Assembly (NCBI RefSeq): GCF_026011735.1
Contig: NZ_BRVN01000001.1
Span: forward strand, 186,001 to 250,000
Source: Dietzia sp. NCCP-2495
GTDB taxonomy: Bacteria > Actinomycetota > Actinomycetes > Mycobacteriales > Mycobacteriaceae
Direction: 5' to 3'
Length of the DNA: 64,000 nt
Position 1 is the stretch's first letter. The number at the start of each line of letters is the position of its first letter. The translations under genes were made by a program, and so were the position numbers. The notes beneath the pieces are model-generated. The model was given only the letters and a program-made list of their open reading frames with translations, made no database searches and was not told where the DNA came from. Shown one piece after another: positions 3,413 through 20,534 of the stretch.

Positions 3413-4468
3413 TCATCCTCCCGACGAGAGTGACTCGTATACAGACAGGGTCTCCCCTGCGACATGCGCCCACGTCCGCATGCCGACGACATCCTCAGAG
3501 GCGCGGCGAAGCTCGGATCGCCGGCCTGAGTCCTCGACCAGTTCCCGGAGCACCGATGTCCAGTTCTCCACTGTGTCACGGGGCACCACGACCGCGCCGT
3601 TGCCGACAGACTCAGGGATTCCTCCGACTGCGCTGGCGGCCACCACAGCACCACACGCCATAGCCTCGAGTGGCGGTAGTCCAAAACCCTCGTAGCGTGA
3701 GGCGTATGCCACGACGGTGGCCGCGCGATACAGAGCGGGGACGTCAACCCCGTCGACGTACCCGAGCCCGATCGAGCCCGACGGCCGGTCGGGTCCATCG
3801 GTTCCGGCGCCACCGAGGACCATCGGAATTCCGAGCTCCCGGGCCGCCTCGGCCACCACGTGCGGATTCTTTCTCGGTTCGAGGGTGCCGAGCTGCAGGA
3901 TGAACCTCTCGGGGAGACCGTACTTCGCCCGCACCGCGTCGACCTCGTGGTCCTCGGGGACCCGCACCCATCCCGCCGGCGCCAGAGGCGTGACCGTGGC
4001 GTGTCGGCCCGTCAACGCCAGCACTCGCTCCGCAGTGAACTGTGACACCGCGATCACCGCGTCCGCGCGCCGGATCGATCGACGAAGCAGCGCACGCTCG
4101 CCCCCGGCCCGTACCTCCCCGAATGCCCAGGGGGTGTCGAAGACCGACATGTCGTGCACTGTGCTCACCGTGGCGCCGCGCTGACCGAGCGGTAGGTCAA
4201 CATCGAGGGAATGAAAGACATCGGCGCCGGTAACAGCTCGCAGCCCGTGCAACGCACGCGCCGCCCCACTGCTGACCGGTCTCCGGATCGCGGCAACCGC
4301 ACCGGGGAGCTCATCCACCGCATCGGCCTGCACGACCGCGGCGAACCGCCGTCCGGTATGCAGAGCGGAGGTGGCGTGGATGAGCTCGCGCTGGTAGGTC
4401 TGGACTCCGCTCCCGCCCGGCCGGAGCGCCAGGGCGCCCCACACCACGGTCCGGCCGCGTCCGGTCAC
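3413..4468 (-). CDS. GT4-family glycosyltransferase B (polysaccharide locus)
   Basis: 351-aa GT-B-fold glycosyltransferase. The N-terminal glycine loop is in RPGGSGVQTYQRELI, the Rossmann donor domain begins near FILQLGTLEPRKNP, and the EX7E motif EGFGLPPLE is at residues 260-268. These are typical of mannosyl-, galactosyl- or rhamnosyl-transferases of capsule and exopolysaccharide loci. The GTG start at 4468 overlaps the stop of the preceding phosphoglycosyltransferase gene by 4 bases (GTGA), which implies translational coupling. It probably adds the second or third sugar of the repeat. The acceptor and donor cannot be read from sequence. Confidence 0.9.
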   Translation of the reverse strand: MTGRGRTVVWGALALRPGGSGVQTYQRELIHATSALHTGRRFAAVVQADAVDELPGAVAAIRRPVSSGAARALHGLRAVTGADVFHSLDVDLPLGQRGATVSTVHDMSVFDTPWAFGEVRAGGERALLRRSIRRADAVIAVSQFTAERVLALTGRHATVTPLAPAGWVRVPEDHEVDAVRAKYGLPERFILQLGTLEPRKNPHVVAEAARELGIPMVLGGAGTDGPDRPSGSIGLGYVDGVDVPALYRAATVVAYASRYEGFGLPPLEAMACGAVVAASAVGGIPESVGNGAVVVPRDTVENWTSVLRELVEDSGRRSELRRASEDVVGMRTWAHVAGETLSVYESLSSGG

Positions 4469-5997
4469 TTACCAGTGCCCTTGATCACGACCAGCAATGT
4501 CAGCAGGATCGACCGGATATCCATCCAGGGCGACCAGTTCTCGATGTAGAAATTGTCGAACATCACCCGATCGGCGATGCTCGTGTCACCGCGGAGGCCG
4601 TTGATCGCCGCCCATCCCGTGAGTCCCACCGGAACCCGGTGCCGAGCGGCGTAGCCGCGGTACTCGCCACTGAAGCGTTCGACGAAGTGCGGCCGCTCCG
4701 GGCGCGGTCCCACCAGGGCCATGTCGCCGCGGAAGACGTTATAGATCTGGGGGATCTCATCCAGGGACGACTTACGGAGGAACGCACCGAGCGGCGAGAT
4801 TCGCGGGTCACCAGCGATGTTCCAACGGGTCTGGGACTCGTTCTCGTCCGCGGGACGCATTGACCGGAACTTCAGCAGCTCGAACTCGCGTCCGCCCTCT
4901 CCGATACGGATCTGTCGGAACAGGACGGGAGCAGTCCGGTCATCGAGCTTGACTGCGAGAGCAATGGCCAGGAACAGCGGTGAGAGCAGGACAAGTGCCA
5001 GGCCACTCAGCAGTACGTCCATGGGCCGCTTGAACTTCCACCACACCGAGCGGTGAGCCGACCGCTTTACGCGGATCAGTGGGAGCGCGTTGATGCGATC
5101 CATCCGGCCCTCGACATTCAGGTAGTCGAACAGCCGCGGGACGATGAACACCTCCGCGTCCTCGTGGTCGCACTCGGTCAGCATCTTCAGCAGTTCGCGA
5201 TCGTCATAGGCACCGAAGCCGATGATGACGGTGCGTACGCGATGGCGACGGATCACCTCGACCAGACCGGCGCTCGGGTTCTCGAGCGGAATACCCATCT
5301 CGAAGGCCGTGCGCCTGGCGGAAGCAGTCCGGTCAGCGTCGACAAGTGCGACCGGAGAAAGACCGAAGTCAGGACGTTCCCGGAGCGTGCGGGCCAGGTC
5401 CAGCGAGGTGGAACCGGTTCCGACAATGATGGTGCGATGGCGGAATGCTCTGTAGCGCCGCCGACTCCACCTCAACAGTGGCGCCACGACCATGCGCGTG
5501 ATGACGAGGGTCGTCACCACCACTGCCGTGAAGTACATGAGGCTGAACAGGTTCATCCCGGCGTTCGAGACGACCGCGCCGAACACGGACAGGACCGTAC
5601 CAACCACCACGACCCGGGGCAGATCGTCGAGGACGGAGACGGTAAGGCGATGTCTGTAGAGCGTGGGCGAGAACATGATCGCGACGATCAGCGCCGACGC
5701 GGTCAACCACGGCCGCTCCGGAAGAAACAGCAAGGCGATGACGACGATGGCGATCGCGTCCGCGAGTCGGTGCCACACGTCGAAGCGGTAGCGCGGGGTG
5801 ACGAGCAGGAACCGAATCCGACGAACCCACGGTGAGCGATGCGTGACGGTCGCCCGCGCTTGGTCGGCCGTGGCATCGACACCCCATGTGGAGTCGCGTA
5901 GTGGTGCGGAGTCGGTTGCTCGATCAGGAGCGCCTACTCGCGTGTCTGCGTCCTCACGGGAGTCAGCCAGGGCACGGGTAGGGGCGGGAACGCTCAT
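4465..5997 (-). CDS. Polyprenyl-phosphate sugar phosphotransferase starting the polysaccharide
   Basis: 510-aa membrane enzyme of the WbaP/WcaJ type (polyprenyl glycosylphosphotransferase), which moves a sugar-1-phosphate from a UDP-sugar to undecaprenyl or decaprenyl phosphate and so commits the lipid carrier to the repeat unit. Several N-terminal membrane segments (about residues 75-175) come first, then a cytosolic Rossmann-like region (IIVGTGSTSLDLARTL), a further membrane segment (VLLSGLALVLLSPLFLAIAL) and the bacterial sugar transferase domain. That domain carries KFRSM, KSSLDEIPQ (409-417) and MALVGPRPERP, which include the conserved catalytic acidic pair. The ATG at 5997 overlaps the ACP stop by 4 bases. 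Length and motif order are normal for the family. Confidence 0.92.
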   Translation of the reverse strand: MSVPAPTRALADSREDADTRVGAPDRATDSAPLRDSTWGVDATADQARATVTHRSPWVRRIRFLLVTPRYRFDVWHRLADAIAIVVIALLFLPERPWLTASALIVAIMFSPTLYRHRLTVSVLDDLPRVVVVGTVLSVFGAVVSNAGMNLFSLMYFTAVVVTTLVITRMVVAPLLRWSRRRYRAFRHRTIIVGTGSTSLDLARTLRERPDFGLSPVALVDADRTASARRTAFEMGIPLENPSAGLVEVIRRHRVRTVIIGFGAYDDRELLKMLTECDHEDAEVFIVPRLFDYLNVEGRMDRINALPLIRVKRSAHRSVWWKFKRPMDVLLSGLALVLLSPLFLAIALAVKLDDRTAPVLFRQIRIGEGGREFELLKFRSMRPADENESQTRWNIAGDPRISPLGAFLRKSSLDEIPQIYNVFRGDMALVGPRPERPHFVERFSGEYRGYAARHRVPVGLTGWAAINGLRGDTSIADRVMFDNFYIENWSPWMDIRSILLTLLVVIKGTGK

Positions 5998-6245
5998 GCG
6001 AGGTCCTTCAGCGCTTCGACCATCGACCCGATACTGGAGAAGGTGGCCTTATTCAGACGATCGTCAGGGAACTCGACGTCAAATTCGTCTTCAAGTGCGA
6101 GCATCACCTGCACGGTTTGATGGGACGTCATTCCCGCATCAAAGAGGTTGTCGGACGCGCCAAGTCCGCTGAGATCAACTTTCCCGGCCAGAGCGGTATT
6201 GAGTGCCCCCCGGACTCGGTCCTCGGCTCCCTGCAGATCGTTCAT
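5994..6245 (-). CDS. Stand-alone acyl/aminoacyl carrier protein
   Basis: 83-aa acidic helical carrier protein. The phosphopantetheine site is most likely Ser41 in DAGMTSHQTVQVML, where most ACPs have the DSL motif. GMTSHQ-like sites are, from memory, what carrier proteins paired with amino acid:carrier-protein ligases tend to have. No fused catalytic domain. It is the first gene of the reverse operon (4-base overlap with the phosphoglycosyltransferase) and is divergent from the ligase-like gene 413 bases away. It is too diverged, and in the wrong setting, to be the fatty-acid-synthesis AcpM. Proposed role: to carry an activated amino acid or acyl group for a transfer step of polysaccharide assembly. 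The carried group is unknown. Confidence 0.85.
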   Translation of the reverse strand: MNDLQGAEDRVRGALNTALAGKVDLSGLGASDNLFDAGMTSHQTVQVMLALEDEFDVEFPDDRLNKATFSSIGSMVEALKDLA

Positions 6246-6658
6246 GCCCTCCCCTTTGGCCCGTCGACACTGTCTAGTAATAGTGCAAGTGGACGGTTTT
6301 GTTACCCGCCAGTAAGGGTAAGAAGACTCACACCGCGCTCATCGGGGTCTGCGCCGGGAATCACGACTGCGCCGCGAGGTGCTGCCGGGCGATCGGATTT
6401 TCGCCGACAAGCCCTTGCCGACAGCGCAATTCGGCGACACGCAGGCGCACTTGCCACAGCGAATCCCACTCGGAAACCGGCTGTCATCACCGGACCTTGT
6501 GACCAAAACCATATCGGCGAACTCGCAGGGCCGAGACGATGATCACCAGTTGGGTAGCATCCCCTGCGGGCATACGGGTGAGTCAACGACCCTCCCGGCA
6601 TCGCACGAACGGTTCGTGGGTGGCCTCAGCCCGGACACGAGAGGTGGACTGCGCCTTC
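6246..6658. promoter_or_regulatory. Divergent intergenic region between the ACP and ligase-like operons
   Basis: 413 bases without a convincing gene, less GC-rich than its surroundings near the ACP end. Forward: TAGCAT at 6555-6560 is a fair -10 element, giving a leader of about 90 bases, and GAGGTGG near 6641 is the ribosome site for the ligase-like gene. Reverse: an AT-rich patch around 6270-6305 is the likely ACP promoter area, but I cannot assign hexamers with confidence. I saw no leader peptide, T-box or other riboswitch form. Confidence 0.45.
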
Positions 6659-7600
6659 ATGACCTCGATCGACACGCTCCACGATCAGTTCAGGCGGGAA
6701 CTCGTCGAGGCCGGGCTGCTCTTCGACACCGGACTGGACGGCCTCTACGCCCGCGGTGCCGAGTTTGAGCGCATCCTCGACGCGGTGGATCACCTGATCA
6801 CTCGAGATGGACACGCTGCCAGCGACCTGACTCCTGCGGGTAGTGGATACCGACTGTATCGATTTCCCCCGGTGTTTCCTCGCGACGTGTACGACAAGAC
6901 CGACTACATCGAGTCCTTCCCGGATCTCACCGGGCTCGTCCACACGTTCACCGGGTCGAGCTCGGATCACCGGGCGCTGTTGGCCCGGCGGGCAGCCGAC
7001 GAATCCTGGGATCACCACCTGACCCCGGGCGACACCGTCATGGTCTCCTCTGCGTGTCACCCGCTCTACGGGGCGATCCCACAGCAGCTTCCCGAGGGCG
7101 GGATCGCGGCCGAGGTGAACGGATACTGCTTCCGCCACGAACCGTCGCCGGACCCGATGCGCATGCAGGCGTTCCGGATGCACGAGTTCGTGCGGATCGG
7201 CACCCCCTCGGAGGCTGCAGAGTTCCGGACAGCCTGGGTCGGGCGGGCCCAAGGACTGCTGTCCGGTCTGGGGCTCGAAGTGGAGGCCGTCGCCGCCAAC
7301 GATCCGTTCTTCGGACGTGCGGGCAAGCTCCTGGCCAACGGACAGCTCTCGAACAACCTCAAGACCGAGCTCGTCGTGCATGTCTACGGGGACGACCATC
7401 CCGCCGACGCGATCGCCTCGTGCAATCTCGCGGAGGACCACTTCGGGCGGAACTTCTCCCTGACCCTGCCGGACGGGTCAACCGCGCACAGCGCGTGTGT
7501 CGGCTTCGGTTTGGAGCGGATCACCCTTGCCCTCCTGTCGGTTCACGGCACAGACCCGGCACAGTGGCCGGCTACTGTGCGGGAGACCCTGTTCCCGTGA
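6659..7600 (+). CDS. Class-II aaRS-like amino acid:[carrier protein] ligase
   Basis: 313-aa homologue of the catalytic core of atypical archaeal-type seryl-tRNA synthetase with no tRNA-binding domain. This is the layout of the amino acid:carrier-protein ligases described in Bradyrhizobium and others, which adenylate an amino acid and thioesterify it to a carrier protein. Motif 2 is in CFRHEPSPDPMRMQAFR. Motif 3 is GFGLER (residues 282-287). Candidate zinc ligands Cys133 (SACHPL), Glu176 (MHEF) and Cys280 (SACVGFG) match the C-E-C pattern of that family. The ATG at 6659 has GAGGTGG upstream; earlier in-frame starts give no family sequence. The carrier protein is divergent; the next gene overlaps by 4 bases. 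The amino acid cannot be predicted; glycine and alanine are known for relatives. Confidence 0.87.
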   Translation: MTSIDTLHDQFRRELVEAGLLFDTGLDGLYARGAEFERILDAVDHLITRDGHAASDLTPAGSGYRLYRFPPVFPRDVYDKTDYIESFPDLTGLVHTFTGSSSDHRALLARRAADESWDHHLTPGDTVMVSSACHPLYGAIPQQLPEGGIAAEVNGYCFRHEPSPDPMRMQAFRMHEFVRIGTPSEAAEFRTAWVGRAQGLLSGLGLEVEAVAANDPFFGRAGKLLANGQLSNNLKTELVVHVYGDDHPADAIASCNLAEDHFGRNFSLTLPDGSTAHSACVGFGLERITLALLSVHGTDPAQWPATVRETLFP

Positions 7601-10467
7601 CGGGTGCGTCCACATCGCAGGCCACCTGGTTCGGCCCGGGCGATGCCTCCCTGTTCGGGGTCCTCGAGTACCCCACCGATCGTCGTATCCGAGCCGGTGT
7701 CGTGGTGGTTGCCTCCCTCGGCATCGAGCAGGTCACCACGTACCGCGGTGCACGCGCGCTCACGGGCCGGCTCGCCCGCGAGGGATTCGCCACCTTGCGG
7801 TACGACCATCCGGGGACGGGCTCGTCGACCGGGGACCAGCTGTCGGACACCGCGTGGGACGAATGGCGTGACGGCCTCGCGACAGCCGTAGAGTTCCTCC
7901 GGAACCAGGGGGCGTCGCACGTGATCGTGCTCGGCATTCGGGCGGGCGCACTCATCGCCGCATCGGCGATCGCCTCCGGCGCCGTGACGGGGACGTCCCT
8001 CGCACTGTGGGACCCGCCGCTGACGGGCCGTCGATTTCTCCGGGAGCAGACTGCCAAGTACCGTCTGATCGTGGGCGAGGACCCGACCGACCCCGGGGTG
8101 TCCGTCCCCGGCGGCCACTTCTCTGTAGCCACAGCCAAACAAATCAAGTCCGCCGCCTGGCCTACGGAAGTCGGGGTAGACCTCCTCGCCGCACGGTCCG
8201 ACGACCTGTCCACCCCGACACTCGGGCAGCTCACAGGTCCCGACACCCGGACGGTGAAGCTCGCCCAGTGTGAGCTGTTCGTCGCACCGCTGGCCTTCAT
8301 CCACCACGTGCCCGAGCCTGACATCGACCTCCTCGTCAACCACCTCTCCGCCCTCGCCGACCGCACCGACCTGCCTCATCTCCCCGCCGATTCGTATTCG
8401 GACTTCGTCCCCGACATCCGCCTGACGGCGGTCGTGGGTCATCGACCGGACGGTTCGGTGATCGAGGAGGAACTGTCGACCCTCACCCCGTCCGGGCTTC
8501 CGCTGGTGACGACCCGGGTCCGGGGCGAGCCCACACGTGGCGGCGTCGTGTTCCAGTCCACCGCCAACGAGCCCTCATGGGGTCCCACACGGGCCTGGGT
8601 GGAGGCAGCCCGCGAGAACGCCGGCAACGGATTGGCCTGCTTCCGTTTCGACAAGACCGGCGGAGGCGAGGCCGGCGCGGTCGTCCCCGGCGAGATCGCG
8701 GTGCTCTACTCGCACGCTTCCCGTGAGGAAGCCGTTAATGCGCTGCATGCCCTCGGCCTACCGAGACGAGCCCTGATGGTGGTCGGACTGTGCTCTGGTG
8801 CCTGGATGTCCGCCGAGTCGGCGATCCGGGCCGGAGCCGGGACCGCCCTGCTGTTCGGAATGATCCAGTGGTCACGGGTCCGTGAGCCCGTGACCAAGGA
8901 GTTCCTCCTCCGGCACGGATACGACCTCGAGAACCAGATCCCCCCGGCCACCGAATCTGGGACCTCGCGCCTCAAACCACTGGCCCGTCGCCTCCTGCCG
9001 TATCCGGCATGGCGAGAACTCGGGCGACGGGGCTTCACTCAGGTCCCTGGTCCCCTCCTGTCCGACTTGCACTCCGCCGGCGTCCGCACGGTCGTTGCGC
9101 TGACCCCAGAGGACGATGACCACTTCACGATCCAACGCGGCGACGCCGAGCTGCGCCGGTTACGGCGGCGCGGATTCGACGGTCGAATCGAGCGCATCCC
9201 CTCCCCTCAGGGGGATCACAACCTATACCGCCCAGACACCCGCCGGTCCGCGGTCCGCCTGATCCGGCAGGAGGCCGACACGCTGCGCGCCAGGCTGGGA
9301 CTGCGGATCGAGGACCAACCGGTTCGGCCGCTACGGGCGTTGTTCGTCAACGAGAACATCGGAGGCCACGCGACCGTTCACCATGCGCTACGCCGCGTCC
9401 TGGCCGCCCGCCCGGATATCGAGGCGGAGTTTCTTGACGCTCATGGGCCAGGCCTGCCCGGCCGACTGCTCCGGGCTCCGATACCGGGGCTTGCCCGGCT
9501 CGATCTCGATCTCCAGCCGCTCCGCGGCCAGCTCGTCCACTCGTGGTCCGTCACCAAGCGTGTCCGACGCCGTCTGCGCCGGGGCGACATCGACGCCGTT
9601 CACCTCTACACGCAGAACTGCATGCTCGGAGGTGCCCGAATCCTGAAGTCGGTCCCGACCGTCATCACGACCGACAGCACCGGACTGCGCAACGCCTACA
9701 GCATCCCCTACCGCACCCCGTCCCGCTTCACCCCACTGAGCAGCCGGGCTATCCTGCCGTTTGAACGCCCGGTTTTGCACGCGGCCCATCACATCCTGGC
9801 CAATGCGGCCCCCGTCGTGGATTCGCTCACGTCGCCCGACTACTCGGTGCCGCCGGAGTCAGTCTCTCTCCTGCGGATGGGGATCTGGTCGCCCCACCTC
9901 ATCGCCGGGCTTCCTGACCGCCCGGAAGATCGTCGTCCCACCATCGTCTTTCTCGGGACATCGATGGAACGAAAAGGGGGATCCCTCCTCCTGGACGTGT
10001 GGCGGAACTCCTTCCGCGAGCGGGCGGACCTTCTGCTGGTCACGCTCGACCCCGTCCCCGAAGAACCGGGATTGCAGGTCGTGAACGACCTGACGCCGGG
10101 CGACGACCGACTGTGGGACCTACTCGCCGGGTCGGACATCATGTGCTTTCCGTCGACGATTGATCAGGCGCCCAACGTCGTCCTCGAGGCCTCCGCCGCC
10201 GGACTGCCCGTCATCGCCCACCCCGGCGGCGCCGTTCCCGAGATGGTCCGGGACGGGATCAGCGGTCTGCTCGTCGACGGCGCCGACCGCGACGCGGTCG
10301 CGTCAGCTCTGGACACGCTGGTCTCAGCCCCGGCCCTGCGCCGCCGCATGGGCGAGGCGGGTTTCGCGCACGTGCGCGACAACTACAGCATGGTCCATTC
10401 CGCCGACCGGCTCGTCCGGGCACTGCAGGAGGCCACCGCCACGCGAATCACGGAGTCGATCTCATGA
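7597..10467 (+). CDS. Tandem alpha/beta-hydrolase fused to a GT4 glycosyltransferase
   Basis: 956-aa three-domain protein. Domain 1 (about 1-270) is an alpha/beta hydrolase of the exosortase-A-associated hydrolase type, but its nucleophile elbow reads GIRAG (113-117) with Arg115 in place of Ser, so it is probably inactive. Domain 2 (about 290-570) is a second hydrolase with elbow GLCSG (397-401), putting Cys399 at the nucleophile position. Domain 3 (about 578-950) is a GT4 transferase beginning RALFVNENIGG, whose EX7E motif has Asp first (DQAPNVVLE). The GTG at 7597 overlaps the ligase stop (GTGA), and the next gene overlaps too (ATGA). A role as thioesterase/acyltransferase acting with the ACP, joined to a sugar transferase, is inference. 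No signal peptide is visible. Confidence 0.82.
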   Translation: MTGASTSQATWFGPGDASLFGVLEYPTDRRIRAGVVVVASLGIEQVTTYRGARALTGRLAREGFATLRYDHPGTGSSTGDQLSDTAWDEWRDGLATAVEFLRNQGASHVIVLGIRAGALIAASAIASGAVTGTSLALWDPPLTGRRFLREQTAKYRLIVGEDPTDPGVSVPGGHFSVATAKQIKSAAWPTEVGVDLLAARSDDLSTPTLGQLTGPDTRTVKLAQCELFVAPLAFIHHVPEPDIDLLVNHLSALADRTDLPHLPADSYSDFVPDIRLTAVVGHRPDGSVIEEELSTLTPSGLPLVTTRVRGEPTRGGVVFQSTANEPSWGPTRAWVEAARENAGNGLACFRFDKTGGGEAGAVVPGEIAVLYSHASREEAVNALHALGLPRRALMVVGLCSGAWMSAESAIRAGAGTALLFGMIQWSRVREPVTKEFLLRHGYDLENQIPPATESGTSRLKPLARRLLPYPAWRELGRRGFTQVPGPLLSDLHSAGVRTVVALTPEDDDHFTIQRGDAELRRLRRRGFDGRIERIPSPQGDHNLYRPDTRRSAVRLIRQEADTLRARLGLRIEDQPVRPLRALFVNENIGGHATVHHALRRVLAARPDIEAEFLDAHGPGLPGRLLRAPIPGLARLDLDLQPLRGQLVHSWSVTKRVRRRLRRGDIDAVHLYTQNCMLGGARILKSVPTVITTDSTGLRNAYSIPYRTPSRFTPLSSRAILPFERPVLHAAHHILANAAPVVDSLTSPDYSVPPESVSLLRMGIWSPHLIAGLPDRPEDRRPTIVFLGTSMERKGGSLLLDVWRNSFRERADLLLVTLDPVPEEPGLQVVNDLTPGDDRLWDLLAGSDIMCFPSTIDQAPNVVLEASAAGLPVIAHPGGAVPEMVRDGISGLLVDGADRDAVASALDTLVSAPALRRRMGEAGFAHVRDNYSMVHSADRLVRALQEATATRITESIS

Positions 10468-11525
10468 CATTCGACCTCCGTACATCCGTTGATGAGCAGC
10501 TGCGGGCCGACTGGGCCGAACTCGCCGAACAGGTCGGGACCAGGTTCGCTTCCCGTCCAAGCTACGGACTGTCCTGGCACCGACATCTCGCCCGCGGTCC
10601 GCTTCGGATCGCCACCGTGCACCGTGATGGCCGTTTGGTCGCCCTCCTCCCGCTGCACGAACGCCGCCGATTCGGGGTTCCGGTCCTGCGACTCCTCGGC
10701 CATGGCCTGGGTACTGTCTCCGAGGCGTTAGCAACCGACGAACAGGCACTGACGGACCTGGTCTCCGGACTCGCCACCACCGGCGCGGTACTCGAGCTGA
10801 CCCACCTCCCGGCCTCATCGACGCTGGTCACCGCGGTCCACCGTGATCCGGGTTGGGACTCCACCTTCGATCCGGATGATCATTGTCCGGTGATCGAGCT
10901 GCCGGTCGGCACCCGCGCCGCGGACCTACGCAGCAAATCCACCCTCTCCCGCGCGGCGTCCACCCGGCGCAAGCTGGAACGTGAAGGAGCCGGTCTTCAG
11001 GTGGAGACGGTCCGAACGCCTGAAGAACTCGATGCGCGCTGGGACGACATCGTCGCTACCGCAGCGGCCGCCCAGAACGACGAGGGGGACGACCGGCTCA
11101 ATCTGTGCGCGCCCCCACATGACCAGTTCACCAGAGAGTTTCTCCGTCAGGAGGCCGCTGACGGACATCTCCTGCTGTGGGGTGGCACCTTTGGCGGCAT
11201 CTGGGGCGCCCACTTCGCCACGCTGCGCACCGGCCACACGGCCGAACTGTGGTTCACCCGGTTCGATCCCGACCGGGGCCGGTCCCGCCCCGGCCACCTG
11301 CTCATCGAAGCGGTATGTGACCAGCACGACGACGTCGATGTGACCAGAGTGGATCTCCTCATCGGCCGGAGCAGGTACAAGAGGGACTGGCAGAGCCACG
11401 AGTACGCGGTCGGCACACTGACCGCCGTTCCCGCCGGAAACCGGACCGCACGGTCACGCATGGCCGCGGCAGAGCACTCGGTGCGGATCCTCAGGGCTGT
11501 CGCGGAACGGGCCAGGCGCCCGTGA
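10464..11525 (+). CDS. FemAB/BioF2-like GNAT-fold transferase
   Basis: 353-aa protein of the CelD/BcsL-FemAB group (tandem GNAT fold), soluble with no signal sequence. Features: an N-terminal half with RIATVHRDGRLVALLPLHER and RLLGHGLGTVSEALA, a basic helix (STLSRAASTRRKLEREGAGL), and a C-terminal half with LLLWGGTFGGIWGAHFATL, AELWFTRFD and IGRSRYKRDW. FemAB relatives pass aminoacyl groups to cell-wall precursors; others are acyltransferases of exopolysaccharide loci. Next to a predicted amino acid:carrier-protein ligase, aminoacyl transfer to a sugar is a reasonable guess. The ATG at 10464 overlaps the previous stop by 4 bases and the flippase start overlaps this stop by 4, so it is inside one operon. 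Confidence 0.8.
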   Translation: MTFDLRTSVDEQLRADWAELAEQVGTRFASRPSYGLSWHRHLARGPLRIATVHRDGRLVALLPLHERRRFGVPVLRLLGHGLGTVSEALATDEQALTDLVSGLATTGAVLELTHLPASSTLVTAVHRDPGWDSTFDPDDHCPVIELPVGTRAADLRSKSTLSRAASTRRKLEREGAGLQVETVRTPEELDARWDDIVATAAAAQNDEGDDRLNLCAPPHDQFTREFLRQEAADGHLLLWGGTFGGIWGAHFATLRTGHTAELWFTRFDPDRGRSRPGHLLIEAVCDQHDDVDVTRVDLLIGRSRYKRDWQSHEYAVGTLTAVPAGNRTARSRMAAAEHSVRILRAVAERARRP

Positions 11526-13021
11526 CCGAACCGAGCCTGGAGAGGCCGGCTCAGCACTCGCAGAGCCGGTCACTGGTGACCAACTCCTCCGTCCTGGTCG
11601 CCAGCAGGATCATCACGGCGGTGTTCGGCTGGGCCGGCACTGTCGTGATCGCCCGGACCCTGTCCCCGGAGGACTGGGGACAGTACGCATTCATCTTCGG
11701 GTTGCTGGGGATCATGGCGCTGATCACCGATCTCGGGGTGGGACGCGTCGTCCTCGCCAGGCTCGCCGCGGACGACCACGATGAGGCGCGCCAGGTGGCA
11801 GGATCGTTCATCCTGCTCCGGGTACTTCTCGGCACGCTCGGGTTCGCCGTCGCCATCGCCTACGCAGCACTGACCGGACTGTCGGTCACCATGGTGGCCG
11901 TGGTCGCCTTTGCTGCCACGAGCGTCATCCTCGCCACCCCCGCCAACGCCCTGCTGGTCCTGTACCAGGCGCGACTTCGACTCGTCCCTGTGGCTCTGTG
12001 GGACATCGTGGCGCAGCTCGTGCAGTTCGCCCTCGTCCTGGTGGTCGCCTGGGCATCGCCGAGCCTGGCGTGGTTCATCATCCCTGCGATCGTCAAAGAG
12101 TTGGTGGTCCTGGTGGCCCGGTCAACCGGGGTCCTGCGCGGATCGCTCGGCTCGGTGCCCGACTTCTCCGCCGGAACCAAATACTGGGGCGAGATGCTGC
12201 GGGAAGCGATTCCGATCTCCATCGGGTTCGCGCTCATCATGCTGCTGACCAAGGTCGACATCCTCATTCTCCAGCGCTTGGACACCTACGACGCGGTCGG
12301 CATGTACGCGATCGGCTACAAATTTTCTGACCTCGTGATCATGGTGACCGTGACCATCTCGGTGCCCATCACGACAGTGCTCGTGCGGTCGTGGCCCGAC
12401 GACCCCGAGACGTTCCGTCACCGGACCCGGCAGGCGATGGTCGTGGCCGGTGGGCTCGGGGCTCTGGCATCTATCGGCTTCTGGCCGACCGCCGATTTCT
12501 TCGTGGGCCTGCTCTATGGAGAAACCTTCGTCCCCGCCTCCCATGCCGCCCGGATCCTGGTGGTCTCGAGCGCGATCAGCGGTGTGACCAACATTGGGCT
12601 CGTGGCACTGGTCGCCGCGCGCAAGCTCTCCGTCTTCCCTTGGGTAGCCGGCGCCGGCGTCCTGCTCAATGTGGGCCTGAACTATCTCGCGATCCCTCGG
12701 TGGTCCTACGACGGGGCGGCAGTGGCCACCCTGATCACCGAAGTGGTGATGTTTGTGGCCTGCTTGATCGTCGTCCAGGTCAGCCTGCGGATTCGAGGCA
12801 GCGTGCCCTGGGGTCCATTGATCCGTCAGATCCTGCTCGCCGCATCCGTGATCGCTCCCGCGGCAGTGCTCATCGGGTTCTCCGGGTGGCCGTGGCCACC
12901 GGTTATCATCGTGGCTCTTGTACTCTTCGTGGCGTTGGTCGAATACAGCGGGTCACTCGAGGACGTCACTCTGCTCGGACGAATCCCCGCGAGGATCCGC
13001 CGCGGACGGAAGGACCACTGA
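11522..13021 (+). CDS. Wzx-type polysaccharide flippase
   Basis: 499-aa integral membrane protein of the MOP/polysaccharide-transport superfamily, expected to flip the lipid-linked repeat unit across the membrane. It begins with SRIITAVFGWAGTVVIARTL and SPEDWGQYAFIFGLLGIMAL, the usual first two helices of the family (residues about 25-70). About 12-14 hydrophobic segments are spread through the chain, and it ends in a basic tail (IPARIRRGRKDH). The GTG start at 11522 overlaps the preceding stop (GTGA), and its own stop shares one base with the next ATG (TGATG). With the phosphoglycosyltransferase and the polymerase-like gene, this makes a Wzx/Wzy-type export route. Confidence 0.88.
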   Translation: MTEPSLERPAQHSQSRSLVTNSSVLVASRIITAVFGWAGTVVIARTLSPEDWGQYAFIFGLLGIMALITDLGVGRVVLARLAADDHDEARQVAGSFILLRVLLGTLGFAVAIAYAALTGLSVTMVAVVAFAATSVILATPANALLVLYQARLRLVPVALWDIVAQLVQFALVLVVAWASPSLAWFIIPAIVKELVVLVARSTGVLRGSLGSVPDFSAGTKYWGEMLREAIPISIGFALIMLLTKVDILILQRLDTYDAVGMYAIGYKFSDLVIMVTVTISVPITTVLVRSWPDDPETFRHRTRQAMVVAGGLGALASIGFWPTADFFVGLLYGETFVPASHAARILVVSSAISGVTNIGLVALVAARKLSVFPWVAGAGVLLNVGLNYLAIPRWSYDGAAVATLITEVVMFVACLIVVQVSLRIRGSVPWGPLIRQILLAASVIAPAAVLIGFSGWPWPPVIIVALVLFVALVEYSGSLEDVTLLGRIPARIRRGRKDH

Positions 13022-13818
13022 TGGCAGTCCGGCAGCCGTCCCGCACGCTCCGCGACGCCACTGCGGGTCTGCGCCCTGGTCGTTCCGGAGTGGTATTGGC
13101 CTATCACGACGTCATCTCGGACACGGCCGAGGTCTACCCCTACGCCGTCACCGAATCGACGTTCCTGCACCAACTCGACCTGGTCGAGGCAGTAGGCCTA
13201 CGACCGGTCACGCTCTCCCACTTCACCGATTGCCTCGCCGCTGGCGATGCGTCCGGGCTCGCCGCAATCGTCTTTGACGACGCCCTGGTCGGGGTACACC
13301 AGCACGCGCTACCCCGCCTGGCCGATCGGGGTCTCCCGTGGACGCTTCTGCCGGTGACCGAACGCACGGGTGTCCGTCCACAGTGGTGGCCCGAAGCGTC
13401 GCGGACCATGAACAGAACCGAGATCGACGACGCCCTGTCCGCCGGGGCGACGCTGTGCGCACACACCACTACCCACGCCTCGCTTCCCGGGATGTCCACC
13501 GCAGACGCACTCGACGACCTCCGCCGGTCCCGGGACTCACTGTCCGACTGGGCGGGCACCGACATCCGCGAGCTGTGTTACCCGTTCGGGCACCAGAACG
13601 CGCGGATCCGGGCGGTGGCGTCCGACGCGGGTTACCGGGTGGGGTTCACCTTCACCAACGGGCGCAGCGATCCCCGGACAGACATGTACGCCCAACCCCG
13701 GTTGGCGATGCACGAGAACCTTCGGTCCGCGAAATGGCTGGCCACGCTCCTGCGTCCGAGACGGAGCTGGCCCCCGGTCCGCGACCTGGGCGTCGACGAT
13801 TCCGGAGATGCGTCATGA
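13021..13818 (+). CDS. Polysaccharide deacetylase (NodB-fold, CE4-like)
   Basis: 265-aa carbohydrate esterase 4 relative, predicted to remove N- or O-acetyl groups from the glycan. Metal/catalytic motif 1 is FDDAL with Asp86/Asp87, where many members have FDDG. Motif 2 is AHTTTHASL with His148 and His152, the H-x3-H metal pair. The downstream LCYPFGHQN and the tail FTNGRSDPRTDMYAQPR are typical of the group. No signal peptide is clear, so it may act on the cytosolic lipid-linked unit or stay membrane-associated. The ATG at 13021 shares its first base with the flippase stop. Ala for Gly after the Asp pair is a mild deviation. Confidence 0.85.
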   Translation: MAVRQPSRTLRDATAGLRPGRSGVVLAYHDVISDTAEVYPYAVTESTFLHQLDLVEAVGLRPVTLSHFTDCLAAGDASGLAAIVFDDALVGVHQHALPRLADRGLPWTLLPVTERTGVRPQWWPEASRTMNRTEIDDALSAGATLCAHTTTHASLPGMSTADALDDLRRSRDSLSDWAGTDIRELCYPFGHQNARIRAVASDAGYRVGFTFTNGRSDPRTDMYAQPRLAMHENLRSAKWLATLLRPRRSWPPVRDLGVDDSGDAS

Positions 13819-15230
13819 TCGCCGGAATCACGGTGGCCCTGGCGATCTGCGTGGTGCTCTTTGGGCTCTCGGTCAGACGACCCCAGTGGGGCGTGCTCGC
13901 CATGACAGCCCTCATGCCCTTCCACGGGCTCCTTCTGATCTACCCGGTCACCGTGTCGTTCTGGAAGGAGGCGGCGGTTCTCGCCATTCTCGTGGCGTGC
14001 CTGTTCGCCCGGCGTATGCCGAGAACTCGCACGGTCGTCGCGCCGTGGCTGCTCCCGTTGATCGTGCTCGTTCCCCTGGGGGTCATCTCCGCACTGATCG
14101 TCCACGGTGCGGATGCCTTCTTCCCACTGAAGATCGCCTTCTTCTATATCCTCCTCGCGGTGGTGGCGGTGATGTTCCCGTTCACCCGACGAGACAAGGA
14201 CGTGTTTGTCTCGATACTGATCGTGACCGGGGTCCTGTCCTCGCTGTACGGGATCTGGCAGCAGTTCGCCGGGCCATTCGCCCTCGCCGACATGGGTTAC
14301 GAATGGAATGAACACATCCGGAGTGCGGGCCCACTGCTGCGCAGTTTCGGCACCTTCAACCAGCCGTTCCCCTTCGGGCTCTTCCTCATGCTCGTGATCA
14401 TCGTCGGGACGGCCACCGCTCTCGCCGAGCCGCATCGACTCCGATCGCGGCTATTCCTGCTCGCGTTCCCCGTCCTCGGGCTCGGCATGGTCCTGTCGGT
14501 CGTGCGGGCGAGTTACGTCGGCGTCGTGGTAGGCCTCATCCTCATCGGGGTCCTCCTCTACCGCCGTTTCCTCGGATGGCTGGGAGTCGCTGCCGCCGGC
14601 GGCGTCCTGGCACTCGCGGCAACCGCCGCGGTGTTCGGCTCCGCCGTGGTGTCGACGTTCTTCTCCAGCAGCAGCCTGGAGGACCGCGGTGGACACTGGA
14701 CGACCAACGTGCCCCTCATCCTCACCCAACCGTTCGGTCAGGGACTCGGAACCACCGGGTCGTCCGCGGCCAAGGTCTCCGACGGGTGGGACCCGGCGGC
14801 GCCGCTCTACCAACCCGACAGCAATATCATCAAGATCCTGCTGGAGCTGGGCCCGCTCGGTTTCGCCTTGTATGTCGCGGTCGTCCTGCTCATGGTCATC
14901 CCGTTGACGCGGATGATCCCGCTGACCACTGATCCACTGGAGCGAGGACTCCTGGGCGGGGTGGTCGCCGCGACCCTGGCCGCATGCGTCGCCGCCCTGT
15001 TCTCGACCTATCTCGAGATCTTCCCCATGGACGCCTACTTCTGGCTGTTCCCCGCCGTCGCCGGGAGCACGAGTCTCACTGTGCGGAATCAGATCTCCGG
15101 TCGACTACGGCTTCCCCGGCCGGCGATCCTGTCCACTCACAGGACACGGTCCACGACGGCCGCGATCCGTTCCCGGAACGCCGCCTCGGAGAATCCCTCG
15201 GCGAACCGCGTCAATTCCGAGACCGAGTAG
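13815..15230 (+). CDS. O-antigen ligase/Wzy-like membrane protein
   Basis: 471-aa polytopic membrane protein of the O-antigen ligase/polymerase superfamily, predicted to polymerise or ligate repeat units outside the membrane. About 10-12 membrane segments. The large extracytoplasmic loop carries FFSSSSLEDRGGHWTTN, QPFGQGLGTTGSS and YQPDSNIIKILLELGPLGF; the last matches the conserved block after the long loop of WaaL/Wzy proteins. The ATG at 13815 overlaps the deacetylase stop (ATGA). The last ~31 codons overlap, tail to tail, the 3' end of the reverse-strand GT gene (94 bases shared), and the encoded tail is polar and low-complexity, as if the stop had been lost and re-set. Last gene of the forward operon. 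Confidence 0.87.
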   Translation: MIAGITVALAICVVLFGLSVRRPQWGVLAMTALMPFHGLLLIYPVTVSFWKEAAVLAILVACLFARRMPRTRTVVAPWLLPLIVLVPLGVISALIVHGADAFFPLKIAFFYILLAVVAVMFPFTRRDKDVFVSILIVTGVLSSLYGIWQQFAGPFALADMGYEWNEHIRSAGPLLRSFGTFNQPFPFGLFLMLVIIVGTATALAEPHRLRSRLFLLAFPVLGLGMVLSVVRASYVGVVVGLILIGVLLYRRFLGWLGVAAAGGVLALAATAAVFGSAVVSTFFSSSSLEDRGGHWTTNVPLILTQPFGQGLGTTGSSAAKVSDGWDPAAPLYQPDSNIIKILLELGPLGFALYVAVVLLMVIPLTRMIPLTTDPLERGLLGGVVAATLAACVAALFSTYLEIFPMDAYFWLFPAVAGSTSLTVRNQISGRLRLPRPAILSTHRTRSTTAAIRSRNAASENPSANRVNSETE

Positions 15231-16252
15231 GCCGAATCATCCCAGTCGCGCATCGCCTCGGCGAAAGCGGCAACGATGTCGTCGTCGTCACACTCTCCAC
15301 CCACCAACTGACCAGACACGCCCGGCACCACGGTATCCACCGCACCACCCCGACCCAGGGCCAGAACCGGCGTACCCGCGGCGATGGCCTCAACCGGCAC
15401 AATCCCGAAGTCCTCCTCGCCGGGCATGACCAGTGCACGGGCGCCACGAACGAGGTCGCGCATCTCCTCCCGCGGGAGACGGCCGAGGAACTCCACGCCG
15501 GGGCCGGATCGGGCGACGCACCGCTCCATGTCCCGCCCCTCACCCACGACGAGGAGACGGACGCCGGCCTTGACGGCCGCGGCGACGGCCCTGTCGACCC
15601 GTTTGTAGGGCACCAGGCGACCGACGGAGATGAAATAGTCACCCCGTGGCACATCACCCGGAGTGAAGTAGGTGGTGTCCACGGGCGGATGCACCACCCG
15701 GGCATCCCGGCCCCACCACTGACGGATCCGTTCCCGTACCGCCGTCGAATTGGCGACGATCTCGTTCGGCGCGGGCGACCAGCGCTTCTCATTGGCTTTC
15801 GCCCGCGCGCCGAGCACGCCCAGTGCCGCTCGGCCCGCCGCCGAGTCCGTCTCCCCGTGGCGAAAGCCCGGATCCCACGCCCAGCGGGCGGGACTGTGGA
15901 CATACGCCACCGACGGCACGTCGATCGCCGCTGCGGCGATCGCGAACGCATGGTGGCTGATCACCACCGCATCCGTCTCGGCGGGAGTGATCTCCGCCCG
16001 GCGCAGCGCCCACGGCACCAGAGGCAGTAGCGGCGCGTAGGACCGCCTTCCGATCAGGTCGTAGGTCCGCTGCAGCGGGCCCGTGGCCACCCGGTGGGCC
16101 AATCCGGCCGGGATGCCCTCCGGGCGCGCGAACGGAACGTGGATCGGGGCCTCCGGCCACGTGCGGGCCATCTGCTCGACCACGTGCTCGCTGCCCGCGA
16201 TATCGGTGAGCCGCTCGTGCACGAGGGCAACCCGGGGCTGACGCGACCCCAC
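15137..16252 (-). CDS. GT4-family glycosyltransferase C (polysaccharide locus)
   Basis: 371-aa GT-B-fold glycosyltransferase. It opens with RVALVHERLTDIAGSEHVVEQ, has VAYVHSPARWAWD, the donor-domain start YFISVGRLVPYKRVD, and the EX7E motif EDFGIVPVE at residues 280-288. The VHSPARWAWD block resembles WbaZ-type mannosyltransferases. Two in-frame GTG starts are possible (16282 and 16252). I choose 16252 because AGGAGG lies 9 bases upstream and the protein then starts at the family N-terminus; the longer form would overlap the Wzz-like stop by 4 bases. It is downstream of the Wzz-like gene on the same strand and converges with the O-antigen-ligase-like gene. The exact sugar is unknown. Confidence 0.87.
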   Translation of the reverse strand: MGSRQPRVALVHERLTDIAGSEHVVEQMARTWPEAPIHVPFARPEGIPAGLAHRVATGPLQRTYDLIGRRSYAPLLPLVPWALRRAEITPAETDAVVISHHAFAIAAAAIDVPSVAYVHSPARWAWDPGFRHGETDSAAGRAALGVLGARAKANEKRWSPAPNEIVANSTAVRERIRQWWGRDARVVHPPVDTTYFTPGDVPRGDYFISVGRLVPYKRVDRAVAAAVKAGVRLLVVGEGRDMERCVARSGPGVEFLGRLPREEMRDLVRGARALVMPGEEDFGIVPVEAIAAGTPVLALGRGGAVDTVVPGVSGQLVGGECDDDDIVAAFAEAMRDWDDSAYSVSELTRFAEGFSEAAFRERIAAVVDRVL

Positions 16253-16278
16253 TGGATGCTCCCTCCTACCCGCGGCGG

Positions 16279-17457
16279 TCACTTCACTGTTTCTTGCAAC
16301 CGCACCGCCACCCGGGCGGGCACACCGACCTCGGCGAACGAGGCGAGAGCGGCCTCCGCCGCCTTACCGTCCGCGGAACGGTTGTCAACCACAACGATCC
16401 CGAGATCCACGTCGGTTGCGGGCACCTCGCGCCACCACGGATCATCGAAGGACGCGCCCACCGACCGTCCCTCCTGGGCTCCGGAGGCCCGGGGCGCCTC
16501 GACCGGGTCCACATCGCCTAGGACGACGACGGTGCCGCCGGCGGAGAGCACAGCGGTCACTGCGGCCTCGGTCAGAGGCGGGAACCCCGTGCGCGACGAC
16601 TGGTCGATGTCAACGGTGGCCGAGTGGCGATGGCCAGCGGAACGAGCCCAGATGGAATCGGTCCGCCGGCCCCTACGCAGCCGCGCCAAGCCCAGGACCA
16701 GGACGGCCAGTGCCGTCGTGGCGAGACCCGCCACGAGGCCCGTTTGGAACGGCTTCGGCCAGCTCGGTCCAGTGCCTCCGGACTGCGCGACGATGGTGGC
16801 CACAGGATAGGCAGTCCGGAGTTGTTCCGCACCCGCTCGAGCCTCGTAGATGAGGGCGAGAAGATCAGAGGTGTCCGCCTGGCGATCCAGACGACGACGG
16901 GCATCGATCTGCTCATTGAGACGGTCGACCTCTTTTTGAGCCGCCTCGGAGACGGGCTCCAGGATCTGCTCCCGCGCTTCGACAGACCGCAAGTTCATGG
17001 CCTCGACCGCCAGATCACCCATCTTCGCCGCGTTCAGCGGTCCGGACTGCGACCTGGTGTTGACCTCGAGGAGACCCGGGATCTTGGAGGTGGTGACCGT
17101 GACCGACGGCCTCAGTCCGTACAGGGTCACGGGCTCCCCCACGCCCTCCTCGATATAAAATCGCGCCCTCTCGTCCGTCACATATTCGGACATCCCGGCG
17201 GCAAGGGCTTCCATCGTGGCCGCGTCCCGCTCCTCGCGGCCGGGCGTGGCGACATTCACGGTGGTGGTGGCGGTGTACTCATCCCGGAACGTCGATGCGA
17301 TGATTCCGGCCAACACTCCCACGACCAGACCGATCACGATCGCCGCGGGCAGAGACCTCGCAAGCGAGGAGATCACCAGGCCCAGATCGAGAACCGGTGG
17401 ACGGTCCCCTCGGGTGCCCGCCTGGGTACCGCGCCCGTCAGTGCTAGCCGTCTCCAT
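16279..17457 (-). CDS. Wzz/YveK-like polysaccharide chain-length (co-polymerase) protein
   Basis: 392-aa membrane protein. N-terminal segment (LPAAIVIGLVVGVLAGIIAS, about residues 37-56), a long extracytoplasmic part with predicted coiled helix (EAAQKEVDRLNEQIDARRRL), and a second segment near residue 250 (TGLVAGLATTALAVLVLGLA). This is the two-helix Wzz architecture that sets chain length with Wzy. The C-terminal cytosolic part (residues about 290-392) has VLSAGGTVVVLGDVDPVEA, a Rossmann-like strand that recalls a BY-kinase domain but with no Walker A motif, so it is probably non-catalytic. The ATG at 17457 is chosen over an upstream TTG because GGAGGG lies 9 bases before it. Transcribed with GT C. 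Confidence 0.85.
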   Translation of the reverse strand: METASTDGRGTQAGTRGDRPPVLDLGLVISSLARSLPAAIVIGLVVGVLAGIIASTFRDEYTATTTVNVATPGREERDAATMEALAAGMSEYVTDERARFYIEEGVGEPVTLYGLRPSVTVTTSKIPGLLEVNTRSQSGPLNAAKMGDLAVEAMNLRSVEAREQILEPVSEAAQKEVDRLNEQIDARRRLDRQADTSDLLALIYEARAGAEQLRTAYPVATIVAQSGGTGPSWPKPFQTGLVAGLATTALAVLVLGLARLRRGRRTDSIWARSAGHRHSATVDIDQSSRTGFPPLTEAAVTAVLSAGGTVVVLGDVDPVEAPRASGAQEGRSVGASFDDPWWREVPATDVDLGIVVVDNRSADGKAAEAALASFAEVGVPARVAVRLQETVK

Positions 17458-17674
17458 TGATGGAGTCCCTCCAGTCGACAAAGGTGGGTGCCGGAACCCC
17501 GCCGCATTCGGGACACTCCGAGTACCGCGCGATCATATCGCCCAATACCACCAGATGAGGACACCTCCCGACTGTGAGACCGAGCACCTGCTCGGTTCTC
17601 CGAACTGCCGGTAGCATGCGCGACGAACGCCCTGGCGACCTCAGACCAGGGCCCCGACCATCGTAGGTACTCAT
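17444..17674 (-). CDS. Possible small Cys-rich protein (uncertain)
   Basis: A 76-codon reading frame from ATG 17674 to TAG 17444, overlapping the Wzz-like start by 14 bases. The C-terminal half has GRCPHLVVLG and SECPECGGVPAP, a C-x16-C-x2-C spacing that could bind zinc, then FVDWRDS. I do not recognise a family. Against it: its ATG overlaps the ATG of the divergent condensation gene by two bases, third-position GC is lower than in neighbouring genes, and I see no strong ribosome site. It may be a true small gene with a later start, or leader sequence of the Wzz-like operon. Confidence 0.3.
   Translation of the reverse strand: MSTYDGRGPGLRSPGRSSRMLPAVRRTEQVLGLTVGRCPHLVVLGDMIARYSECPECGGVPAPTFVDWRDSINGDG
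17612..17617 (+). promoter_or_regulatory. Candidate -10 for the condensation-domain operon
   Basis: TAGCAT, about 55 bases before ATG 17673. The same GGTAGCAT octamer occurs upstream of the ligase-like gene (6553-6560). No good -35 is visible. Confidence 0.35.
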
Positions 17675-19448: not shown

Positions 19449-20524
19449 TCTGCTCCGACCTGAGGGTCCTCCACCTCGTCAACGAGGTCGTAGACACCGG
19501 CAACGGGATCGTCAACGTCACCGTGGATTTGGCGATCGACGCGCACGCACGTGGTCACGAGGTCGCCGTCGCCTCGTCCGGCGGCGGATTCGTGGACCTC
19601 CTGCGCTCATCCGGGGTGGCCCATCACCGCATCGACTTCCGCGGGGAGCCGTTGCGTTCCTTCTCGAAATTGCGCGCGCTTATCGCCGACTTCCAGCCCG
19701 ACATCGTGCACGCCCACACCGTCGCACCCTGCCTCCTGGCCGCCGCGGTCCGCGCAGTGCCGGGCGGACCCGATTTCGCACTGATCGCCACCATGCATAA
19801 CGTGTACCAGCGCTCGTCGTTACTCATGGCGTCGGCGGACATGACGGTGGGAGTGGCGCAGTCCGTTTCCGACGTGGTCGGTAGTCGCCGAATCCGGTCC
19901 CCCCTGCTCGCCACCGTGGTCAACGGCGTGATCAACTCCCCGCGGCGTGGGCGAACCGACCCTGTGGCCAGGGATCTGGGACCCCGCTCGATCGTGGCGG
20001 TCGGCGCTGTCTCACACCGCAAAGGAGTGGACGTACTCCTCGCTGCCTTCGAGATTCTGGCCACCACCCGCCGGGATCTGCACCTCTGGTTTATCGGCAA
20101 CAAGGACTGGGAGGAGTTCGTCCACGAGGCCGAGTCCTCCGTCCATGCCGACCGTGTCCATCTGATTGGCTTGGCCGACGACCCCACCGCGTTCCTTGGC
20201 GAAGCCACGGTGGTCGCTCTGGCTTCACGACGCGAAGGACTCGCGTTGTCCCTGCTGGAGGCCCGAGAGTCCGGCGCGGCCATCGTCGCCACGGAAACCG
20301 ACGGCGCTCGCGAAGGCCTTGACGCCGGTGAGGCCGGCCTCCTCGTCCCCGTCGACGATCCCGATGCGCTGGCAACGGCGCTCGCCCGGGTCATCGACGA
20401 TCGCGAGTGCCGGGACGACCTCCGTCGGCGCTCGGCGAACGGTCTGGACCGGTTCAGCGTGACCAGGATGGCACGTGAGTACGAAGAGGTATATCGACGA
20501 GCGATCGCTCACCGTCACACCTGA
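19445..20524 (+). CDS. GT4-family glycosyltransferase D (polysaccharide locus)
   Basis: 359-aa GT-B-fold glycosyltransferase. N-terminal block LRVLHLVNEVVDTGNGIVNV, acceptor-domain PDIVHAHTVAPCLLAAAV, donor-domain start SIVAVGAVSHRKGVDVLLAAF, and the EX7E motif EGLALSLLE at residues 264-272 followed by GAAIVATETDG. The ATG at 19445 overlaps the stop of the condensation-domain gene (ATGA), so the two are co-translated, and a shared substrate (sugar to be acylated or aminoacylated) is plausible. It ends 10 bases before the convergent glycoside hydrolase gene. Donor and acceptor are not predictable. Confidence 0.88.
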   Translation: MICSDLRVLHLVNEVVDTGNGIVNVTVDLAIDAHARGHEVAVASSGGGFVDLLRSSGVAHHRIDFRGEPLRSFSKLRALIADFQPDIVHAHTVAPCLLAAAVRAVPGGPDFALIATMHNVYQRSSLLMASADMTVGVAQSVSDVVGSRRIRSPLLATVVNGVINSPRRGRTDPVARDLGPRSIVAVGAVSHRKGVDVLLAAFEILATTRRDLHLWFIGNKDWEEFVHEAESSVHADRVHLIGLADDPTAFLGEATVVALASRREGLALSLLEARESGAAIVATETDGAREGLDAGEAGLLVPVDDPDALATALARVIDDRECRDDLRRRSANGLDRFSVTRMAREYEEVYRRAIAHRHT

Positions 20525-20534
20525 TCGGCCTCGG

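Follow-up and report, generated by a model that had tools for sequence, protein, structure and literature searches.

A 64,000-nucleotide stretch of Dietzia sp. NCCP-2495 (contig NZ_BRVN01000001.1, positions 186,001 to 250,000; hereafter the window) carries, within a surface-polysaccharide locus, a ligase resembling aminoacyl-tRNA synthetases (aaRS), an aminoacyl carrier protein and a stand-alone condensation (C) protein of the non-ribosomal peptide synthetase (NRPS) type. The finding worth keeping is this condensation-type variant of the ligase locus. An amide-forming fold is present where the predicted amide ligase of the classical ligase operon was not found, and the aaRS-like ligase is the sole loader among the genes scanned; together these point to a split NRPS-like aminoacyl-transfer device in which the condensation protein would form the amide (probability about 0.42). 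The history proposed with it, held equally tentatively, is that the aaRS-like enzyme took over the adenylation (A) step of an NRPS, that a C-A protein kept its C domain while the A domain decayed, to about 160 and then to about 70 residues, and that the resulting hybrid builds aminoacyl amides on a cell-surface glycan. If true, evolution would here have exchanged NRPS-type activation for activation of the translation type.

The condensation protein matches PF00668 with 71.7 bits (cut-off 30.6) and keeps the HHxxxDG motif, in the form CHHMFIDG. In the PDB it matches C domains of NRPSs as well as 1l5a, an amide synthase that we take to be VibH. The second His and the DG of the motif are retained in all 15 condensation proteins found beside the ligase, and these group in a single clade (100/100) when set against 35 NRPS C domains, a topology consistent with one recruitment. 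The last ~160 residues display no Pfam match and no AMP-binding domain. A profile of this tail, compared with 177,635 PDB sequences, gave five matches at E ≤ 10, all five adenylation or AMP-forming proteins by name; they fall at residues ~370–466, with a best E of 0.0021, and the alignments of two were inspected. The best match of the tail to the NRPS proteins of the genome itself falls at the same motif. Compared with a complete C-A-thiolation (T) module, the protein lacks an intact adenylation core and only the hinge region aligns. The tail is thus an apparent adenylation-domain remnant without its core, the scores being modest and their agreement good. The stretch after residue 436 spans 156–169 residues in four of the condensation proteins and 68–70 in the other 11. 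In two loci, L166 and L204, the first His of the motif is replaced by Asp (DHxxxDG), resembling the (D/H)HxxxDS form given for OaaC-type proteins in the available text of PMC13142362. A strict search of 396 genomes of the phylum with the L166 condensation protein (E ≤ 1e-35) found a match only in the source genome of the window.

The distribution of the condensation protein follows that of the ligase in two genera. In Dietzia the ligase is present in 2 of 23 genomes, and a search of the same genomes with the condensation protein gave full-length matches in these two only, together with partial and much weaker matches in G401 and at a second place in G417; the G401 sequence (L107, G401:C31:4447-5571) has one in-frame TGA. 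The second ligase-bearing genome, G417, holds a compact island (L104) of carrier, divergent ligase, the hydrolase domains H2 and H1 with part of the attached glycosyltransferase (GT), the FemAB-like gene and a 611-residue condensation-domain protein; no homologue of the window flippase or polymerase occurs in its 20 kb. Across the order, 122 of 249 genomes matched the condensation alignment, mostly in large NRPS frames. The top match after the window was a 610-residue frame of G640 spanning the C domain and the tail, and a shorter, lower match came from G593, of the same genus; in both, ligase and carrier adjoin the condensation gene. This second genus is probably Tsukamurella, because Tsukamurella tyrosinosolvens NZ_LR134455.1 (L226) has the same gene order. 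Among its 16 genomes 15 carry the ligase (14 over the cut-off), and in 13 a stand-alone condensation gene lies at most 5 kb from it; of the misses, G659 is without ligase, G660 is in 890 contigs and G658 has a broken-up ligase match. The T. tyrosinosolvens condensation protein and probable hydrolase pair (L226:9195-10613 and 19335-20930) are both annotated 'hypothetical protein'. The former aligns with the window protein at 27% identity (E 3e-29) and lies below the Pfam cut-off, and three short condensation relatives scanned from the second genus are likewise all under the PF00668 cut-off.

The surroundings of the ligase were compared in 95 loci, comprising the 80 matches listed for a contig scan with the window ligase, which has at least that many, the first 24 kb of the window itself, L104, L166, L167 and 11 further loci from the second genus; L205 was excluded, as no ligase was found in it. 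Because flanks extend over ~10 kb or less and some of the contigs are short, absences are not proof. In the 15 condensation-type loci the carrier is always present, accompanied by a GT4 glycosyltransferase (GTc) in 14, the hydrolase in 13, the initiating polyprenyl glycosylphosphotransferase (PGT) in 12, a phosphopantetheinyl transferase (PPTase) in 11 and FemAB in 2, while dehydrogenase, DUF1839 and GH2-like glycosidase are each found in 0/15. The other 80 loci contain carrier (77), dehydrogenase (71), DUF1839 (51), GH2-like gene (49), hydrolase (49), PPTase (44), PGT (20), GTc (4) and FemAB (0). The mutual exclusion of dehydrogenase and condensation protein has a Fisher p of 1.2e-11, a value that ignores relatedness. 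Dehydrogenase, DUF1839 and GH2-like gene were all not found in the window's first 24 kb; a DUF1839 search of the source genome gave no match, with no control giving one either, and the dehydrogenase and GH2 were sought at the locus only. Nine loci have neither dehydrogenase nor condensation protein. Two of them, L022 and L087, are cut short, and L022 is probably condensation-type because its contig is 99% identical to the window. That contig, 99% identical at the ligase, sits in a metagenome-assembled genome labelled Dehalococcoidia, probably through a binning error. The condensation-type ligases occupy long branches of the ligase tree, where a single clade is not rejected (approximately unbiased test, p 0.375); separate origins were dropped on this value, which is itself no proof of one clade.

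The ligase and carrier are, judged by their family matches, a plain member of a known family. The ligase, of 313 residues, scores 381.6 bits with NF005479, the amino acid--[acyl-carrier-protein] ligase family (curated cut-off 357), over its full length (residues 6–311), and its closest solved structures are 4h2w (E 1.2e-63) and 3mey (E 1.8e-60), both ligase entries whose source organism is presumably Bradyrhizobium. The matches cover the class II core alone, without a tRNA-binding domain. The zinc residues C133, E176 and C280 are all present; C133 and C280 are kept in 15/15 condensation-type and 70/70 dehydrogenase-type relatives, and E176 in 13/15 (Asp in the other two) and 70/70, respectively, 10 further tree rows of neither type being left uncounted and the stricter score of the tree giving 70 dehydrogenase-type rows where the census has 71. 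The two types differ at columns 253 and 285. The family is uncommon, with matches in 10 of 396 sampled genomes of the phylum, four over the cut-off. A distant relative in Streptomyces decoyicus (L228, NZ_CP108348.1) is annotated 'hypothetical protein'; its neighbour is a phosphopantetheine-binding protein, and the cluster that holds both is dpgABC/NRPS/PGM1-like. The carrier scores 78.8 bits with NF005480, the partner carrier family (cut-off 72), and finds its best PDB match in 4h2w, namely the aminoacyl carrier protein there (E 2.4e-9); by analogy, the Ser of GMTSHQ would be the phosphopantetheine attachment site. Two PPTases are encoded elsewhere in the source genome. Several carrier-domain matches in large frames, NRPS- or polyketide synthase-like by eye, occur in L130 (own genome, C7:46000-62000) and L129. 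A preliminary description of the window had named the ligase by its zinc triad and missing tRNA-binding domain, and had placed a divergent carrier at the head of the PGT operon; both identifications hold.

In the proposed scheme the carrier would receive its phosphopantetheine arm from a PPTase encoded elsewhere in the genome, and the ligase would activate a small amino acid with ATP and load it onto the carrier. The condensation protein would then transfer the aminoacyl group from its donor, the aminoacyl-S-carrier, to an amine and so make an amide; the likeliest acceptor would be an amino sugar within the lipid-linked repeat unit. Its ancestor would be a C-A protein of an NRPS that shed the adenylation core because the ligase does that job, and it would fill the place that DUF1839, as predicted amide ligase, has in the classical operon. 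The Cys-hydrolase domain H1 and its probably inactive partner H2 may constitute an accessory thioester enzyme, acting in proofreading or relay, and the FemAB-like protein may contribute a genus-specific extra acyl transfer. Direction is the main doubt, because the closest named relatives of the condensation protein, MxcG (172 bits) and EntF (100 bits), are starter-type C domains, for which the aminoacyl carrier is the acceptor. Read in reverse, the condensation protein would N-acylate the aminoacyl-S-carrier, and H1 or FemAB would move the N-acyl-aminoacyl group to the glycan or a lipid, a role to which the conserved Cys-Asp-His set of H1, with its Cys at the nucleophile elbow in the model, would be suited. 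In contrast, no acyl-AMP ligase or second carrier occurs among the 29 annotated features of the Tsukamurella stretch, the one condensation-type locus scanned for them, the window has no PF00550 match other than the carrier, and FemAB is present in just 2/15 condensation-type loci; the reverse direction is considered unlikely.

Further observations weigh against the split NRPS-like device. The tail profile that underlies the remnant call was built from two rows, an hhalign comparison of the single-sequence tail with one EntF-like protein gave a weak probability of 1.6, and the 70-residue tails were judged by alignment alone. The G417 island lacks the deacetylase, which would free the sugar amine. 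In the second genus, G658 (L205) has a condensation-like open reading frame (ORF) with no ligase within ~10 kb, a further condensation-like ORF, a second match in its genome (562 residues), lies at G657:C1:1898719-1899672, additional matches in short frames occur in the order-wide list, and second ligases are situated away from the condensation gene at G640:C1:2366071-2367009 and G663:C2:117183-118091. In addition, dehydrogenase, DUF1839 and condensation protein were all not found in six loci (L023, L025, L035, L046, L068 and L095) that do have ligase, carrier and H2H1, and in L101 the ligase is without any recognised partner. As both partner types are lacking there, some other transferase must serve in these loci, and the six may represent a possible third type with another transferase. 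L068 belongs to Mycobacterium/Mycolicibacterium.

The gene following the ligase had been described as a Cys-hydrolase-GT fusion; the Cys-hydrolase and the GT are indeed present, and two hydrolase domains occur rather than one. H2 spans ~7597–8412, H1 ~8413–9351 and the GT4 domain ~9340–10467. The catalytic set of H1 is C399/D506/H541. In an alignment of 50 proteins, from which loci with either domain under 200 bits were excluded, H2 has Arg (R115) at the nucleophile position in 50/50, and H1 has Cys (C399) in 49/49 ungapped and His (H541) in 48/48 aligned proteins. An AlphaFold model of residues 1–585, based on 34 sequences (mean pLDDT 90.4, pTM 0.92), places R115 and likewise C399 where a strand passes into a helix, a position like that of a nucleophile elbow. 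Searched against solved structures, the H2H1 profile has 37 matches at E ≤ 0.01, which are esterases and hydrolases of the alpha/beta type. In the source genome the pair is the single full match, and the remaining four matches hit the GT part. The GT half looks dispensable because its C-terminal part does not align in L104; with only the N-terminal part of the GT aligning there, the GT was dropped as core of the system. H1 could itself be the acyltransferase, forming a Cys-aminoacyl enzyme intermediate that is passed to the sugar. The hydrolase pair occurs together with every type of ligase (49/80 other and 13/15 condensation-type loci, as counted above), a homologous two-domain hydrolase ends the operon in Azospirillum and Mycetohabitans, and H1 is present in the six loci where no other candidate was seen. 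Such a role would leave the exclusive swap of DUF1839 and dehydrogenase for the condensation protein unexplained, and the PDB names are esterases and hydrolases with no transferase among them; we regard it as quite improbable.

The family assignment of the FemAB-like protein stands (PF13480, 56.5 bits, cut-off 22), and its previously proposed role as the transferase is weak. A FemAB/GNAT enzyme moving the amino acid from carrier to glycan, with the condensation protein incidental, would agree with the 4-base coupling to the hydrolase gene and with the occurrence of a 54% identical protein at the same place in G417. The gene lies beside the ligase in 2/95 loci and was not found in the remaining 93, whereas the condensation protein, linked to ligase and carrier in 15/95 loci across two genera, is the better transferase candidate. 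Elsewhere, the FemAB profile gave weak matches in 15 non-self genomes of 296, and in the five of these that were inspected no ligase homologue was present in the stretch, one of which ends at a contig end. FemAB as general ligase partner was therefore dropped, and transfer by this protein in the window appears distinctly unlikely. As regards the FemX-type transferases, which use aminoacyl-tRNA, a comparison of the FemAB-like protein with the PDB by sequence found no relative, the one match being at chance level.

The neighbouring genes (Table 1) support the surface-polysaccharide setting first described for the ligase/carrier pair. The four ORFs described there are found where they had been placed, with 4-base overlaps at junctions 7597, 10464 and 11522; the carrier and PGT genes also share four bases (5994–5997). 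The set had been taken to end at 11525, and the condensation protein, encoded further downstream, belongs to it too. The deacetylase-family protein could expose a sugar amine. The frame named Wzy has zero NCBIfam matches, so that the name lacks family confirmation. In the second genus, relatives of GTc come after the carrier gene where the locus is of the condensation type. The polysaccharide genes would be mere neighbours if the system made a small diffusible aminoacyl product, as might be suggested by the G417 island, which lies among genes resembling heme/iron uptake by eye, and by the distant ligase relative in the Streptomyces NRPS cluster; with the PGT in 12/15 and GTc in 14/15 condensation-type loci, this is judged very unlikely.

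Table 1 Features of the polysaccharide locus in the window.
Feature	Position	Strand	Basis
Polyprenyl glycosylphosphotransferase (initiating PGT)	4465..5997	-	TIGR03025, 370.5 bits (cut-off 295.55)
Aminoacyl carrier protein	5994..6245	-	NF005480; divergent from ligase, heads PGT operon
Class II aaRS-like amino acid:[carrier protein] ligase	6659..7600	+	NF005479, PDB 4h2w, C133/E176/C280
H2 hydrolase-like + Cys-hydrolase H1 + GT4 fusion	7597..10467	+	Profile matches, AlphaFold model
FemAB/GNAT-type transferase	10464..11525	+	PF13480
Wzx-type flippase	11522..13021	+	PF01943, PF13440
Polysaccharide deacetylase-family protein	13021..13818	+	PF01522 on 13018-13818; ATG at 13021
Likely Wzy polymerase	13815..15230	+	Homologues share loci with Wzx in L040 and L041
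GT4 glycosyltransferase (GTc)	15137..16282	-	51% identity in L166 and L167
Stand-alone NRPS condensation protein (HHxxxDG), including tail	17673..19448	+	PF00668, PDB matches, linkage
Tail, an apparent adenylation-domain remnant that retains the hinge (A8) region and lacks the catalytic core	18963..19448	+	PDB matches to tail

The classical operon of Azospirillum and Mycetohabitans is ordered carrier, dehydrogenase, ligase, DUF1839, GH2/beta-mannosidase and alpha/beta hydrolase, and similar gene sets occur in many Rhodococcus and Williamsia loci. Ligase, carrier and two-domain hydrolase are shared with the window: the Azospirillum hydrolase aligns with the window H2H1 at 26% (E 6e-15) and the Mycetohabitans hydrolase with that of L166 at 27% (E 2e-19). 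In contrast, the dehydrogenase, DUF1839 and GH2 were not found in the window locus. Similarly, the Bradyrhizobium/Agrobacterium ligases (NF005479; 3mey, 4h2w) share ligase and carrier families and zinc residues with the window, where the condensation protein is present and the dehydrogenase, DUF1839 and GH2 of classical loci were not found. Attachment of an amino acid to a surface sugar was already predicted in the available text of PMC2922099 (2010), and the interpretation first given to the window is thus partly supported, its general form having been in print. The amide ligase ORF predicted there would, from the gene order, correspond to DUF1839. For DUF1839, the accessible part of PMC10318531 assigns a fold like that of papain and proposes a role in processing glycans at the cell wall, and in the portion of PMC9437257 consulted the role of carrier aminoacylation remains unknown. 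Replacement of DUF1839 by a condensation domain, whose fold is known for amide chemistry, turns the question into a small in vitro assay. No description of a ligase paired with a condensation protein was met in the literature covered, which is without classical papers such as the 2010 PNAS report. A weak carrier match had led to cispentacin; its loader AmcH is adenylate-forming (2-oxoglutarate) and 'aminoacyl-tRNA' is absent from the main text of PMC10698177, and the lead was dropped.

The hydrolase pair of the window recalls the exosortase A-associated hydrolases 1 and 2 in being a pair. H2 resembles TIGR03101 (73.3 bits) and H1 resembles TIGR03100 (25.7 bits), both far below the cut-offs (202.75 and 168.45, respectively), and membership in these families was dropped. 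Exosortase A-associated hydrolases likewise lie in polysaccharide loci with a carrier protein. VibH is a free-standing C domain with an aryl donor and a free amine as acceptor, and the donors of both VibH and OaaC are loaded by AMP-forming enzymes. OaaC, in the available text of PMC13142362, is also a free-standing C domain and joins a carrier-bound acyl group to a free amine. With these two proteins the window condensation protein shares the stand-alone C fold and the conserved second His and Asp, and in the proposed scheme it would also share a carrier-bound donor and an amine acceptor. The donors differ, being fatty acyl for OaaC and aryl for VibH, whereas in the window locus the sole loader found is the aaRS-like ligase; in addition, the window protein ends in an A-domain-like remnant. 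This remnant relates it to the EntF and MxcG modules, in which a C domain is similarly followed by A-domain hinge sequence, although the window protein has neither the A core nor the T domain of those modules.

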